Of a stretch of 49,810 nucleotides of DNA, positions 1,639-39,214 are shown one piece after another. Under the pieces are notes generated by a model. It saw only the letters and a list, made by a program, of their open reading frames with translations. It ran no database searches and was not told where the DNA came from. The position numbers and the translations under genes are program-made. The first letter of the stretch is position 1. The number at the start of each line of letters is the position of its first letter. Source of the DNA: an uncultured Pelagibacteraceae bacterium (GTDB lineage Bacteria > Pseudomonadota > Alphaproteobacteria > Pelagibacterales > Pelagibacteraceae); NCBI GenBank assembly GCA_902584015.1, contig CACHYG010000005.1:1-49810 (forward strand), in the 5' to 3' direction.

Positions 1639-2223
1639 TTGAATAAGATGAATAAATCATCGTTAAATATATTAAACTTTAAGACTTTATATAATATTTT
1701 TTTTGAAACAAAAAATCTTCATAACCTAGATTTGTACCAATATCATAATGAAAATGACCTTATCGAGGGCCTCAAAAAACAAAAAAATTCTGTTATAATT
1801 TCAAGAGTTCAGATAAGTAATAAATTGGTTAACCAAAAACAAATTATTGTAATTGAATATTATCCCTTAAATTTTTTCACTTTAATCGATCAAATTAACT
1901 CTAAATTTTTAATGCAACAATATGATTTTCAGTCAAATTATGAAATTAAAGATTATAAAGTCGATTTAAATTCAAGAATAATTTCAAGAAAGGATAAGGA
2001 ATTAAAACTAACTCAACGTGAGATAGAGGTAGTTTTATTCTTAAAAAAAAATAATCAACCAATAAATGTTAATACCCTCCAAAAAGAAGTATGGGGATAT
2101 TCAGAAGATTTAGAAACCCACACAGTAGAAACTCATATTTACCGATTAAGAAAAAAACTCAAAAAAATATTTGATGATGAGAATTTTATAGAAAGTTTAA
2201 AAGAAGGGTATTTAATAAAATGA
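1639..2223 (+). CDS. OmpR/PhoB-type winged-helix protein with a degenerate N-terminal receiver-like region
   Basis: C-terminal LKLTQREIEVVLFLKKN...VWGYSEDLETHTVETHIYRLRKKL...EGYLIK is the Trans_reg_C signature. The N-terminal ~110 aa lacks an obvious phosphoacceptor Asp motif. Listed start is TTG; an in-frame ATG lies at 1648. Confidence 0.8.
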   Translation: MNKMNKSSLNILNFKTLYNIFFETKNLHNLDLYQYHNENDLIEGLKKQKNSVIISRVQISNKLVNQKQIIVIEYYPLNFFTLIDQINSKFLMQQYDFQSNYEIKDYKVDLNSRIISRKDKELKLTQREIEVVLFLKKNNQPINVNTLQKEVWGYSEDLETHTVETHIYRLRKKLKKIFDDENFIESLKEGYLIK

Positions 2224-2327
2224 AAAAAAAAAATTTAATAGCTAAAGACTTAATGACTTCAAAATATAAACCAAGGGTTATAAAATCAAAAAAGGGTAAG
2301 GGAAGCTTCAAAAGAAAAAAAAAATAA
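2220..2327 (+). CDS. Short ArfA-like ribosome rescue factor (35 aa)
   Basis: Manual translation MKKKNLIAKDLMTSKYKPRVIKSKKGKGSFKRKKK*. It matches the ArfA core RV..NKKGKGSYxRK. ATGA overlap with the upstream stop (2220-2223). Confidence 0.72.
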   Translation: MKKKNLIAKDLMTSKYKPRVIKSKKGKGSFKRKKK

Positions 2328-2337
2328 TCTAAATTTT

Positions 2338-3267
2338 TTAAAGTCTAGCCCCAATTTGTTGAATTACCTTTGATGACATTTCAGTGCCTTTGTCTAAGCT
2401 GTCTTTTAATGACATATTATTTACATGACCGTGTAGAAATCCTGCAGCAAAAAGGTCTCCAGCGCCCGTTAAATCAACAATTTTAAGACCTTGTCTTATT
2501 CCACATTCTACAACTTCATTTTTATTAATCGCAACAGCTCCTCTTTCGCCTCGTGTTAAAACAATCATCTTACCAAGAGACTTAGAGAAATTTATTACTT
2601 CGTCAAAAGATTTTGCATCTATTAATGACATAATTTCTTGTTCGTTTGCAAAAGTGATATCTAACTTGTTTTTTACTAAGTCTAAAAAATGAGGTTTATG
2701 TCTATCAACACAAAATTGATCCGACAAAGACATTGCAACTTTGTTTGCATTTTGAATAGCTTTATCAAATGCTTTTTTAGGGTCACCCTCATCCCAAAGA
2801 TATCCTTCTAAAAGAATAATTTCACTCTGCTTAATTGCATCTGTACTGACATCATTTTGATTTATTTTACCAGCCGTTCCTAAAAAAGTGCACATCGTTC
2901 TTTCAGAGTCAGGAGTTACTAATATTAAGCATGTTCCAGTTGGAAGTTCTTCTTTTTTCTTTGAATAAAAATACTTAACGTTTTCTTGTTTTAATCCCTC
3001 TTCATATTTACTACCCAGTTCATCTTCAGAAACTTTACCAATAAACCCGACTTTATTACCTAATTGAGACAAACCAACTATAGAATTAGCGACAGATCCA
3101 CCTGAGACGGTCTTTTCTATTTTTAGACTAGAGAGTAAATTTTTAAATTCTTTGTCGTCAAAAATTAATTTCATAGTGCTCTTAGTTAAATTATTATTAC
3201 TTAAAAAATCGTCTTCTACTTTACAGATAACGTCAACAATCGCATTTCCTATACCTAGAATTTTCAT
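2338..3267 (-). CDS. PfkB-family sugar/adenosine kinase
   Basis: GNAIVDV, GGSVANS, and C-terminal VDLTGAGDLFAAGFLHG (PfkB signature 2). Confidence 0.9.
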   Translation of the reverse strand: MKILGIGNAIVDVICKVEDDFLSNNNLTKSTMKLIFDDKEFKNLLSSLKIEKTVSGGSVANSIVGLSQLGNKVGFIGKVSEDELGSKYEEGLKQENVKYFYSKKKEELPTGTCLILVTPDSERTMCTFLGTAGKINQNDVSTDAIKQSEIILLEGYLWDEGDPKKAFDKAIQNANKVAMSLSDQFCVDRHKPHFLDLVKNKLDITFANEQEIMSLIDAKSFDEVINFSKSLGKMIVLTRGERGAVAINKNEVVECGIRQGLKIVDLTGAGDLFAAGFLHGHVNNMSLKDSLDKGTEMSSKVIQQIGARL

Positions 3268-9316: not shown

Positions 9317-10448
9317 ATGAATTTCCTTCAACTTTATAAAAATTGAGTACATGATTAATTTTTTTATTTTTTATTTGGAAATTACCAGATATTCCTTTAA
9401 AAGTATTTTTTTCCTCAAAAATCTTTTCGTCTACTAAAAAATCGTTTTGCCTCAATAAATAGTAAATGAGTCCCACGAGATCGTATGTTATTAAAGATAA
9501 TTGATTTGGGGGTTCCTTATAAAATTCTTCATATTCTTTATTAAATTTATCAAAGTTCCCTTTGTTAACTGAGGGAAAACTTATGGGTTGAGATGCTGTC
9601 TCTTTAAATAATGTTTTATCAAACCATTGATTTAGAGATATAAAAGTCACATTCTTAGGAGATACATCAGTATAAAGAAGTGATGTTGTTACACTTTTCA
9701 AACTTTCATCAAAATCTGCAATGATAATAGAGTCGTATCCAATTTTACCAAGAGTATCCCTCCGATTTAAAATTTCTAATTTTTTTTCTTTATTTTCCTC
9801 TTCTGAATTTTCTATTCTCCTAATTTCGTCCGCAAGATTTTGTTTTCTTATTTGGTATCTAGTGATCTTTTCAATTTGTTTAGTTAATTTAGTCGGTTCG
9901 GTATCATAATAAAATATTTTTTTTGAATTAAGTTTTGAATCCTTAATTGCTTCTTCAATCTCTTCTTTATAATCTTTATTTGGAATCAAAACTAAAGTTT
10001 GTTTTAAATCATTCTTTTTTTGAAATTTTTTAATAGCCCTAAATTGTGAATTGGCATTTATACCTGAACTAATTACGTTTTTTGGATTATTCAACACTTT
10101 ATTTGTTAAGGACAAAAAAATTGCATCCTCATATTTATCCAATCCAATCAAATTTCTATTAAATACTGGCCCGATAAAAATTCTAACACCTTCAATATAT
10201 AATTCCTCAACTTTTTTAATTGTTTCCAAATTATCAGCCCTTGTATCCCTTGGTAAAATATAAATATTATTATTATTAATTTTTTTTAAGGCCATTTTTG
10301 TTGAACCTATTACTGAATTCCCAATGTATTTAAACTCTCCAGAAAAAGGGGCTAATAATCCAATTTTGATTGACTCATTTGCTAAAGCGGTTTTTGTTTT
10401 TAAAAGAAAAAAAATTATTACTAAAAAATACTTAATATGTGCTTTCAT
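9300..10448 (-). CDS. Periplasmic-binding-fold protein (LpoA/penicillin-binding-protein-activator or ABC ligand-binding-like)
   Basis: Signal peptide then ESIKIGLLAPFSGEFKYIGNSVIGSTKMAL...GVRIFIGPVF, the Peripla_BP_6-like start. Confidence 0.65.
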   Translation of the reverse strand: MKAHIKYFLVIIFFLLKTKTALANESIKIGLLAPFSGEFKYIGNSVIGSTKMALKKINNNNIYILPRDTRADNLETIKKVEELYIEGVRIFIGPVFNRNLIGLDKYEDAIFLSLTNKVLNNPKNVISSGINANSQFRAIKKFQKKNDLKQTLVLIPNKDYKEEIEEAIKDSKLNSKKIFYYDTEPTKLTKQIEKITRYQIRKQNLADEIRRIENSEEENKEKKLEILNRRDTLGKIGYDSIIIADFDESLKSVTTSLLYTDVSPKNVTFISLNQWFDKTLFKETASQPISFPSVNKGNFDKFNKEYEEFYKEPPNQLSLITYDLVGLIYYLLRQNDFLVDEKIFEEKNTFKGISGNFQIKNKKINHVLNFYKVEGNSFIEIF

Positions 10449-10513
10449 TTATATTTCTTTAATTATAATTATATTTAATAATGATTCCATTAAACGAAAA
10501 CAAAATAGTAAGC

Positions 10514-11344
10514 ATGAAAAGTGGTTTATATGTGGTCGCAACACCAATTGGTAATTTAATGGATATAAGTTTCAATGCAATTGAAATACTTAAAAAATCT
10601 GACATTATTCTTTGTGAAGATACAAGGGTATCAAAAAAATTACTAAATAGATATAATATTGAATATAAAAAACTGGTTGCAAACCACAAATTTAATGAAA
10701 ATAAAAATCTAAATAAAATAATTTCTTATTTAGAAAATAATAAAATTATATCAATAATTTCAGATGCAGGTACTCCATGTATTTCCGATCCAGGTAAGAT
10801 TTTAATTAATGAGTGCGTTAAAAAAGAAATAAATATTTTTTCAATCCCAGGACCGTCATCTGTAGTGTCTGCAATTTCTATAAGCGGTTTTTCAGATAAG
10901 TTTATTTTTTATGGTTTTTTTCCAGAAAAAGAAAAAGATATGAAAAATGATTTTGAAGCCTTATCAAAGTTAAATTTTACAATCGTCATTTTCATTTCTG
11001 CAAAAAAATTTAAAAAAAAATCACACAATCTAAAAAAATATTTTCCAGACAGAAAGTTATTAATATGTAAAGAATTAACAAAAATGTATGAACAACATTT
11101 TAGAATGAATGTTTCTGAAATTAGTAACTTTAATAATGAATTAAAAGGTGAAATTACTTTAGTAATCTCCCAGAAAATTCATAGCGAATCAGAGGATCAT
11201 TTGAGTGATACGGAAAAAAAAAAAATTAGAAAACTTATTAAAAATTTGAGTATTAAAGATATTGTAAGCGAGATAAAAAAAAATAAAGATATATCCAGAA
11301 AAGAAATTTATAATTATTGCTTAAAAATTAAAAATGAAAAATAA
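10514..11344 (+). CDS. rsmI: 16S rRNA (cytidine(1402)-2'-O)-methyltransferase
   Basis: GLYVVATPIGNLMDISFNAIEIL, CEDTRVSKKLL, ISDAGTPCISDPG, PGPSSVVSAISISGF. ATG at 10514 is preferred over 10481 by family N-terminus. Confidence 0.94.
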   Translation: MKSGLYVVATPIGNLMDISFNAIEILKKSDIILCEDTRVSKKLLNRYNIEYKKLVANHKFNENKNLNKIISYLENNKIISIISDAGTPCISDPGKILINECVKKEINIFSIPGPSSVVSAISISGFSDKFIFYGFFPEKEKDMKNDFEALSKLNFTIVIFISAKKFKKKSHNLKKYFPDRKLLICKELTKMYEQHFRMNVSEISNFNNELKGEITLVISQKIHSESEDHLSDTEKKKIRKLIKNLSIKDIVSEIKKNKDISRKEIYNYCLKIKNEK

Positions 11345-37000: not shown

Positions 37001-39214
37001 GTGAGTAAAGAAATTTTAAAAGAACAGTCAAAATGCCCTTTTACAGGTGCTGGAACACCACCAAAACATCCAACTGGAAAAGGAACTTCAAATAGAGACT
37101 GGTGGCCGAACAGTCTAAATCTTAAAATACTAAGCCAGCATTCTAGATTAGTAAATCCGATGGATAAAAAATTTAGTTATGCGAAGGAATTTAAGAAATT
37201 AAATTTTAAAGCTCTCAAAAAAGATCTACATAAATTAATGACAGATTCGCAAGATTGGTGGCCGGCTGATTATGGTCATTACGGTCCATTATTTATAAGA
37301 CTTGCTTGGCATGCGGCAGGTACATACAGAACTGGCGATGGAAGAGGAGGTGCTGGTACAGGCAATCAGCGTTTCGCTCCACTCAACAGTTGGCCTGATA
37401 ATGTTAATTTAGATAAAGCAAGATTATTACTCTGGCCTATAAAGAAAAAATACGGAAAAAGAATTTCTTGGGCAGATTTATTTATTTTAGTTGGGAACGT
37501 TGCACTTGACTCCATGGGATTCAAAACTTTTGGTTTTGGAGCTGGTCGTGAAGATATTTGGGAACCAGAGGAAGATATTTACTGGGGATCAGAAAAAGAA
37601 TGGTTAGGTGTAAATAGATACAGTGGAAAAAGAGATTTAGAACAGCCATTAGGTGCTTCTCACATGGGATTAATCTATGTTAATCCACAAGGTCCTGATG
37701 CAAATCCTGATCCATTACTAGCAGCACATGATATCAGAGAAACATTCGGTAGAATGGCAATGAATGATTATGAAACTGCGGCTTTAGTTGCAGGTGGACA
37801 TACTTTTGGAAAGTCTCATGGTGCAGCTCCTGAGTCTCACAAAGGCCCAGAACCAGAAGGTTCAAAAATACATGAACAATCAACAGGTTGGAATAGTAAT
37901 TATAAAAGTGGAAAAGGTGTTGATACTATCAGCTCTGGAATAGAAGGTGCTTGGACTCAAAATCCTATTAAGTGGGATATGGGATATTTAGATTGTTTGT
38001 ATGGTCACGAGTGGGAATTAACCAAGAGTCCTGCAGGCGCACATCAATGGACGCCAAAAAAAAACGGTCAAGAAATCAAAATGGTTCCTGACGCACATGA
38101 GAGAGAAAAAAAACATCCTCCAATGATGCAAACTACCGATATTTCATTAAAAGTTGATCCAAGTTATGGACCAATAACACAACATTTTCATAAAAATCCA
38201 AAAGAATTTCATGATGCTTTTGCTAGAGCATGGTTTAAACTTACTCATAGAGATATGGGGCCTAGAACATGCTACTTAGGTCCAGACGTACCAAAAGAGC
38301 AGTTAATTTGGCAAGATCCTGTCCCTAAGCAAAAATATAAAATAAAAAAAAGTGAAATAAAAAAACTTAAAGCTCAAATAATAAAATCAGGTCTTAAAGT
38401 TTCAGAGCTAGTATCTACAGCTTGGGCATCTGCATCAACTTTTAGAGGTTCTGATAAAAGAGGTGGAGCAAACGGAGCAAGATTAAGACTTGAACCCCAA
38501 AAAAATTGGGAAGTAAATAAAGCGTCAAAAACAGACAAGGTTATTAAAGTATTGGAAAAAATTAAGAAACAATTTGATGGCAAAAAGAAAGATGTTTCAA
38601 TTGCTGACTTGATAGTTCTAGGTGGTTGTGTTGCCATCGAAAAAGCTGCTAAAAAGGCTGGACATAAAATTTATGTTCCTTTTTCTTCAGGCAGAGGTGA
38701 TGCATTACAAGATCAAACAGATATAAATTCATTTGGTTTATTAGAACCAAAAGCAGATGGATTTAGAAATTACTTGAATTCAGAAACAAATATCTCAGCT
38801 GAGGAACTTTTAGTAGATAAAGCACAGCTTATGAGATTAACTGCACCTGAGATGACGGTTTTAGTTGGAGGTATGAGAGTGTTAGATGCTAACTATGATG
38901 GATCAGAAAACGGTGTGTTTACAAAAAAACCTGGTTCATTATCAAATGATTACTTTAAAAATTTGCTTGATATGAACACTACTTGGATAGGGGTTGATAA
39001 AAAGGAACAGTTATTTATCGGAAAAGATAGAAATACAAATAAGGTTAAATGGAAAGGTACAAGAGTAGATTTAATATTTGGTTCGAATTCCCAATTAAGG
39101 GCTATAGCTGAAGTTTATGCTTCTGAGGATGGAGAAAAAAAATTTGTGACTGATTTCGTTTCAGCATGGACAAAGGTAATGAATTCAGACAGGTTTGATT
39201 TAAAACTTAATTAA
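37001..39214 (+). CDS. katG: Catalase-peroxidase KatG
   Basis: [56 protein letters not shown]; Trp, Tyr and Met of the KatG adduct are present. GTG start. Confidence 0.98.

Follow-up and report, generated by a model that had tools for sequence, protein, structure and literature searches.

The closest described systems are ArfA of Escherichia coli (YhdL, PF03889) and ArfT of Francisella tularensis. E. coli ArfA plugs the empty mRNA tunnel with its tail, and its N-terminal part, with Ala18 in the hydrophobic minidomain that activates RF2, is coupled to the opening of RF2; basic residues beyond position 40 are required, and the protein still works when truncated at Asn47 but fails when truncated after Met40 (PMC5378476). 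Residues V198 and F217 of RF2 form the pocket that holds ArfA Phe25 (PMC6299226), and ArfA and RF2 are reported to be species-adapted (PMC8012679). ArfT, a 40-aa protein, works with either RF1 or RF2; its tail is KKGGSTNKK, its residue at the position of Phe25 is not hydrophobic, and it is not regulated via non-stop mRNA (PMC6299226). A 2024 survey of 15,259 genomes recorded arfA in 0 of the 2,376 Alphaproteobacteria, of which 2,022 had arfB, and outside the Gammaproteobacteria it recognizes ArfA only in some Betaproteobacteria and in ten species of the Bacillus subtilis group (PMC11633108); a review confines ArfA to some of the beta- and gammaproteobacteria (PMC8012679). Here, we describe a short ORF of an alphaproteobacterium of the SAR11 group that, judged by sequence comparison, is very probably a genuine minimal ArfA, an RF2-recruiting rescue factor. 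It lies in the window, by which we mean the whole 49,810-nt stretch of contig CACHYG010000005.1 that was analyzed (Table 1).

Table 1. Positions of arfA, its parts, and its neighbors in the window, with the phage gene discussed in the text
Feature	Position	Strand	Description	Basis
OmpR/PhoB-type winged-helix regulator	1639..2223	+	Upstream; receiver-like N-terminal domain without phosphorylatable Asp	Trans_reg_C 51.3 bits, alignment A3, structure model
ATGA overlap of arfA start and regulator stop	2220..2223	+	Candidate translational coupling	
arfA ORF	2220..2327	+	35 codons, MKKKNLIAKDLMTSKYKPRVIKSKKGKGSFKRKKK, stop TAA	Pfam ArfA match
arfA codons 5-22	2232..2285	+	Aligned with the RF2-contacting part of E. 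coli ArfA; Tyr16 = E. coli Phe25	Gapless alignment
arfA codons 24-35, KKGKGSFKRKKK	2289..2324	+	Putative basic mRNA-channel segment	Invariant residues; E. coli channel binding (PMC5378476)
A10 run before arfA stop	2315..2324	+	Unconserved; no signs of function seen	
PfkB-family sugar kinase	2338..3267	-	Convergent; end 10 bp from arfA	
HTVC027P gp30	L237:15768-15944		ArfA core NPVAKEVRTPKYKSQIIKPKKGRGSFKR with N-terminal extension of about 25 residues	

A conserved coding gene behind a winged-helix regulator

Translation of the ORF gave exactly the 35-residue product of the preliminary description, including the ATGA overlap with the winged-helix gene, in which the regulator TGA at 2221-2223 shares its letters with the arfA start codon. 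Because the ORF is short and lysine-rich and the genome is AT-rich, we considered a chance open frame. The window contains the motif KKG[KR]GS[FY]xR a single time, and none of 40 third-order Markov simulations of the window contains it. Among 125 distinct core sequences, pairwise differences at codon positions 1, 2, and 3 stand at 37,619 : 23,804 : 95,452, and the median dN/dS is about 0.11; since the loci had been found via the motif, dN/dS was calculated again with the motif left out (residues 5-23), which gave about 0.18. Changes are thus concentrated at third codon positions, the coding rather than non-coding pattern on which the preliminary description had made its proposal depend, and arfA is under purifying selection. 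The 35-codon ORF is a real coding gene: the third-position pattern and family-wide conservation already refute the chance frame, whose probability is negligible, and the Pfam ArfA score, order-wide profile matches, PDB matches, operon conservation, the motif-free simulations, and the clean absence of the whole ORF in the loss lineages all stand against it as well.

The arrangement of the locus is widely shared. The regulator lies directly upstream on the same strand in 114 of the 120 distinct loci with enough upstream sequence, the commonest overlaps among these 114 being 4 nt (36 loci) and 1 nt (23 loci), and the convergent kinase follows arfA in 109 of 130 loci. Counted from the first ATG, ArfA is 35 aa long in 67 of 130 loci, and in 92 of 130 it ends three residues past KKGKGSFxR. 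The short length emphasized in the preliminary description is therefore real but is the norm of the lineage, not special to the window genome; the view of the protein as a minimal form without a degradation tail is borne out.

Translational coupling of arfA to the regulator via the ATGA is possible, as judged from the overlap. The coupling proposed earlier stands as far as position and overlap are concerned (the 114 of 120 loci), but does not make the regulator a dedicated partner, and a dedicated regulator-ArfA pair was set aside because the regulator stays where arfA is gone. The predicted fold of the regulator matches full-length response regulators; in the alignment, the N-terminal domain of the window protein lacks an Asp where the third strand is expected to end, so that control by phosphorylation appears unlikely for this protein.

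Family membership and the RF2-facing half

The Pfam ArfA model (PF03889) matches the ORF at 27.8 bits (E = 1.7e-6), above the curated gathering cut-off of 25.5, and 19 of 61 near relatives also exceed this cut-off, with several others just below; NCBIfam holds no model matching the ORF. A profile, A1, built from 29 same-genus relatives found six distinct PDB sequences, each a ribosome-bound E. coli ArfA (5MGP, 5MDV, 5H5U, 5U4I, and others; E values of about 2e-6 to 6e-6), and aligned with them gaplessly over 33 residues; in this alignment, SAR11 ArfA spans E. coli residues 10-44. A short, lysine-rich sequence weakens any single score of this kind. The Pfam score above cut-off together with the profile match to ribosome-bound chains nonetheless upholds the original proposal of an ArfA-like micro-protein.

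Residue conservation covers both halves of the protein. K24, K25, G26, G28, S29, and R32 are invariant among the 125 distinct SAR11 sequences, as are N5 and L11, so that the KKGKGS segment, whose conservation in relatives the preliminary description had singled out, is kept across the set and the KKGKGS(Y/F)xR channel-binding segment of ArfA is present. Position 16 is Y in 119 sequences and F in 6, which places an aromatic residue at the E. coli Phe25 position in 125/125. The RF2-facing half is conserved at N5, K9, L11, Tyr/Phe16, R/K19, and I/V20, with Lys9, at the place of E. coli Ala18, found in 124 of 125. The hydrophobic N-terminal minidomain is largely absent, there being no equivalents of residues 1-9 and Lys in place of Ala18; this minidomain is part of the E. 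coli mechanism and not a condition of the Pfam family.

The RF2 of the window genome carries SPF and GGQ, Phe at the E. coli F217 position, and Ile at V198 (positions counted from SPF 205-207), which confirms the RF2-containing host assumed earlier and provides a matching pocket for the aromatic residue, whereas SAR11 RF1 has Ala at position 217. The protein thus has in common with E. coli ArfA the 33-residue gapless alignment, KKGKGS(Y/F)xRK, the Phe25 aromatic, the RF2 pocket, and a host with tmRNA. It differs from it in length (35 aa vs 72, or 52-55 when mature), in having neither a hydrophobic degradation tail nor a hairpin for non-stop mRNA, in its overlapping operon with a regulator, and in its alphaproteobacterial host, where ArfB was not found.

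With 35 aa and no GGQ, the protein is not an ArfB. Its size is nearer to that of ArfT than to that of mature ArfA, and most of the E. coli minidomain is missing, which raises the reading of an ArfT-like factor that would use a different N-terminal contact to recruit both RF2 and RF1, with the basic tail as its sole resemblance to ArfA. SAR11 ArfA shares with ArfT a very short length, a basic tail, a normal stop, and the lack of tmRNA control, in keeping with the absence of non-stop regulation in ArfT (PMC6299226). However, a KKGGSTNKK-type tail is not seen, the SAR11 protein having an intact KKGKGSF tail and Tyr16 instead; ArfT has no aromatic at the Phe25 position and uses either release factor (PMC6299226), while all 125 SAR11 sequences have Tyr or Phe there and the pocket Phe is kept in SAR11 RF2 but not in SAR11 RF1. 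We consider the ArfT-like reading improbable.

Somewhat more improbable still is a channel binder with another purpose, such as inactivating the ribosome, keeping it in hibernation, or feeding back on the regulator operon. The conserved regulator overlap and the unusual Lys9 would fit such a role, and rescue activity is assigned to SAR11 ArfA by inference; on the other hand, the RF2-facing half is conserved as well as the channel half, and the regulator persists without arfA in at least six genomes. Both comparisons leave an RF2-recruiting ArfA as the preferred reading.

Rescue context, proposed mechanism, and expression

We surveyed the ribosome rescue components of SAR11. The tmRNA is present in 37/37 SAR11 genomes tested and SmpB in 11/13, the two without it being the incomplete G000 and the draft G110. 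RF-1-domain proteins number at most two per genome and exactly two in 35/37 SAR11 genomes; their frames of about 350 to 370 codons, with one of 310, identify them as RF1 and RF2. Neither ArfB nor any third RF-1-domain protein was found in the 37 SAR11 genomes, a count in which ArfB is expected to match the model but which was made without an ArfB-bearing control.

Based on these comparisons, we propose that the basic segment of SAR11 ArfA would bind the empty mRNA channel, and that the segment preceding the channel motif, with Tyr16 in the place of Phe25, would dock RF2, whose GGQ motif would then free the peptide in the absence of a stop codon. The sequence gives good support to both predicted steps, channel sensing and RF2 docking. 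SAR11 ArfA ends at the equivalent of E. coli position 44, between the functional (47) and non-functional (40) truncations, and keeps four basic residues after E. coli position 40. Given that residues 1-9 are missing and Lys9 replaces Ala18, the alignment implies that the RF2 activation step must differ in detail from that of E. coli. The protein would thus recruit RF2, release the peptide, and rescue the ribosome, and would be the only known backup beside tmRNA, because ArfB was not found in SAR11.

Synthesis of SAR11 ArfA would occur by normal translation to an in-frame stop, from a start that overlaps the regulator stop. In E. coli, ArfA is controlled through non-stop mRNA and tmRNA tagging, which membership of PF03889 does not require, and the 3' end of the window gene, which reads AGA AAA AAA AAA TAA and so places a run of 10 A directly 5' of the stop, had led to the suggestion that slippage might matter for control, in which case a non-stop or extended product would result. 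A 10-A run occurs in only 24/125 relatives and none in 62/125, AAA makes up 80% of the lysine codons in the tail and 82% in the core, and the shifted frames at the A10 tract give no extension of conserved length across the 125 sequences. These data speak against slippage, and the tract appears to be a by-product of lysine codons. A search of the window ORF for an E. coli-type hairpin gave none (z = +0.59), nor was a terminator-like site found there. With no tail, no hairpin, no terminator-like site, and an in-frame stop soon after the motif at all loci, E. coli-style control is not expected, and we regard control by either this route or A10 slippage as highly improbable.

An Rfam scan of the window returned 0 matches at the gathering threshold. 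Below the gathering score, at 34 bits, the segment 33270-33318 (+), CGGGGTTCGGGGCACCTGGCAACAGAACGCCCCT, looks like the tmRNA 3' end of Alphaproteobacteria and stands away from the real tmRNA gene. Other SAR11 genomes, too, have extra matches of this kind, some of which lie about as far downstream of arfA. The window segment is possibly an attachment-site remnant or a dispersed element.

Distribution, repeated loss, and phage copies

The closest encoded relatives in named genomes all belong to Pelagibacteraceae or Pelagibacterales single-cell genomes and MAGs, which places the window in SAR11. Profile matches extend to 203/297 genomes of the order (115/150 when near-complete genomes alone are counted) and to 9/11 genera, the genera with ArfA proper being somewhat fewer than nine because the few weak matches (E about 1e-5 to 1e-3, in genus g6 and family f2), where inspected, are of a related DUF7230-like type. 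Pfam ArfA matches 9/385 genomes class-wide, six of these being non-SAR11 candidates, and 51/399 phylum-wide, almost all of the latter outside the class. A few Alphaproteobacteria outside SAR11 (L241, L243, L244, L245) have ArfA-like frames with motifs similar to KKGKGS, which may be further unlisted ArfAs. In our literature search, no paper mentioned ArfA for SAR11 cells, and the published surveys overlooked SAR11 ArfA.

Several complete or near-complete genomes (G062, G063, G066, G067, G072, and others) have no ArfA match; at the empty sites, the convergent kinase comes immediately after the regulator, and nothing of the ORF remains. On the kinase tree, ArfA presence needs four changes, at least three of them forced by well-supported branches, and a single clade of ArfA-minus genomes is rejected (p-AU 0.0002). 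G065 was scored as positive in this tree but has a DUF7230-like protein only; it is an outgroup row, and the within-genus losses are unaffected. Because ArfA occurs in most other genera of the family, the changes point to losses. There have been at least three losses of arfA, which affect some well-studied strains, HTCC1062 among them, and these repeated losses show that it is dispensable in some lineages. No match for the regulator orthologue, arfA, or the kinase was found in G172, G174, and G180, where the whole segment is missing or not assembled.

The DUF7230-like proteins (PF23876; L337 to L341, of which L339 is G065:C1:922175-922267, and HTVC115P gp18, L288:1489-1749) share the N-terminal half NPIAKxLRTPK(Y/F)K with SAR11 ArfA (96% in profile comparison over 26 columns), the best of them matching Pfam DUF7230 at its cut-off, but have KKKYNRK or similar instead of KKGKGS. 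They occur in genus g6 of the family; the sister family, in which no ArfA proper was found, has diverged look-alikes. Replacement of ArfA by DUF7230 in the same-genus ArfA-less genomes was rejected, as no DUF7230 protein is present there and only genus g6 matched. Their sequence similarity makes a second ArfA-like rescue family possible.

Phages encode ArfA as well. IMG/VR contains at least 211 encoded relatives; many of these show a core of the type NPIAKxVRTPKYKPRVVKPKKGKGSFKR, and some share an N-terminal extension (WDGRSR...). HTVC027P gp30, called ArfA in an earlier study (PMC12753301), was deposited as hypothetical and scores 20.2 bits with Pfam ArfA, below the cut-off, while HTVC034P gp63 just passes it (25.7 bits). 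These pelagiphage proteins resemble SAR11 ArfA in having the same kind of core and a SAR11 setting, since the phages infect SAR11, but they are phage genes that do not lie beside the regulator, and HTVC027P gp30 has its extension. HTVC027P gp30 and the phage ArfAs L044, L072, L089, and L102 share an N-terminal extension (WDGRSR/WDGKSR... or similar) ahead of the core. A tblastn search of the phage records with the 35-aa protein gave 0 matches. This is an artefact, for which the low-complexity filter is the most likely cause: searches with longer phage ArfAs do find HTVC027P, HTVC034P, and others. In Caulobacter phage Cr30 (L344:250-402), there is an unannotated 50-aa ArfA-like ORF ending in KRNPIAKALRSSHLQPKIVKPRKGKGSFTRKGK; Caulobacter, its host, is reported to rely on ArfB.

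Both HTVC027P and HTVC034P infect HTCC1062. The tmRNA of genome G066, at 10219-10520, matches the published intergenic position 10302-10518 of HTCC1062 (PMC2704228), which identifies G066 as this strain, and ArfA was found in G066 neither by profile search nor at the locus. The pairing of ArfA-encoding phages with an ArfA-less host rests on two phages, a small sample. It is conceivable, if rather unlikely as a whole, that a stripped-down ArfA replaces ArfB in SAR11 and has repeatedly been lost, that HTVC027P and HTVC034P bring their own ArfA to HTCC1062 and so keep ribosomes free during infection, and that DUF7230, in g6 and elsewhere, is a second, unrecognized rescue family. The losses together with the copies carried by phages of an ArfA-less strain offer a testable case of a phage supplying its host's missing ribosome rescue. 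The overlooked SAR11 arfA illustrates how short genes escape surveys of rescue pathways, and its product of 35 residues points to a minimal construct that structural studies could use. In SAR11, one of the ocean's most abundant bacterial groups, ArfA is widespread, apparently in place of ArfB.
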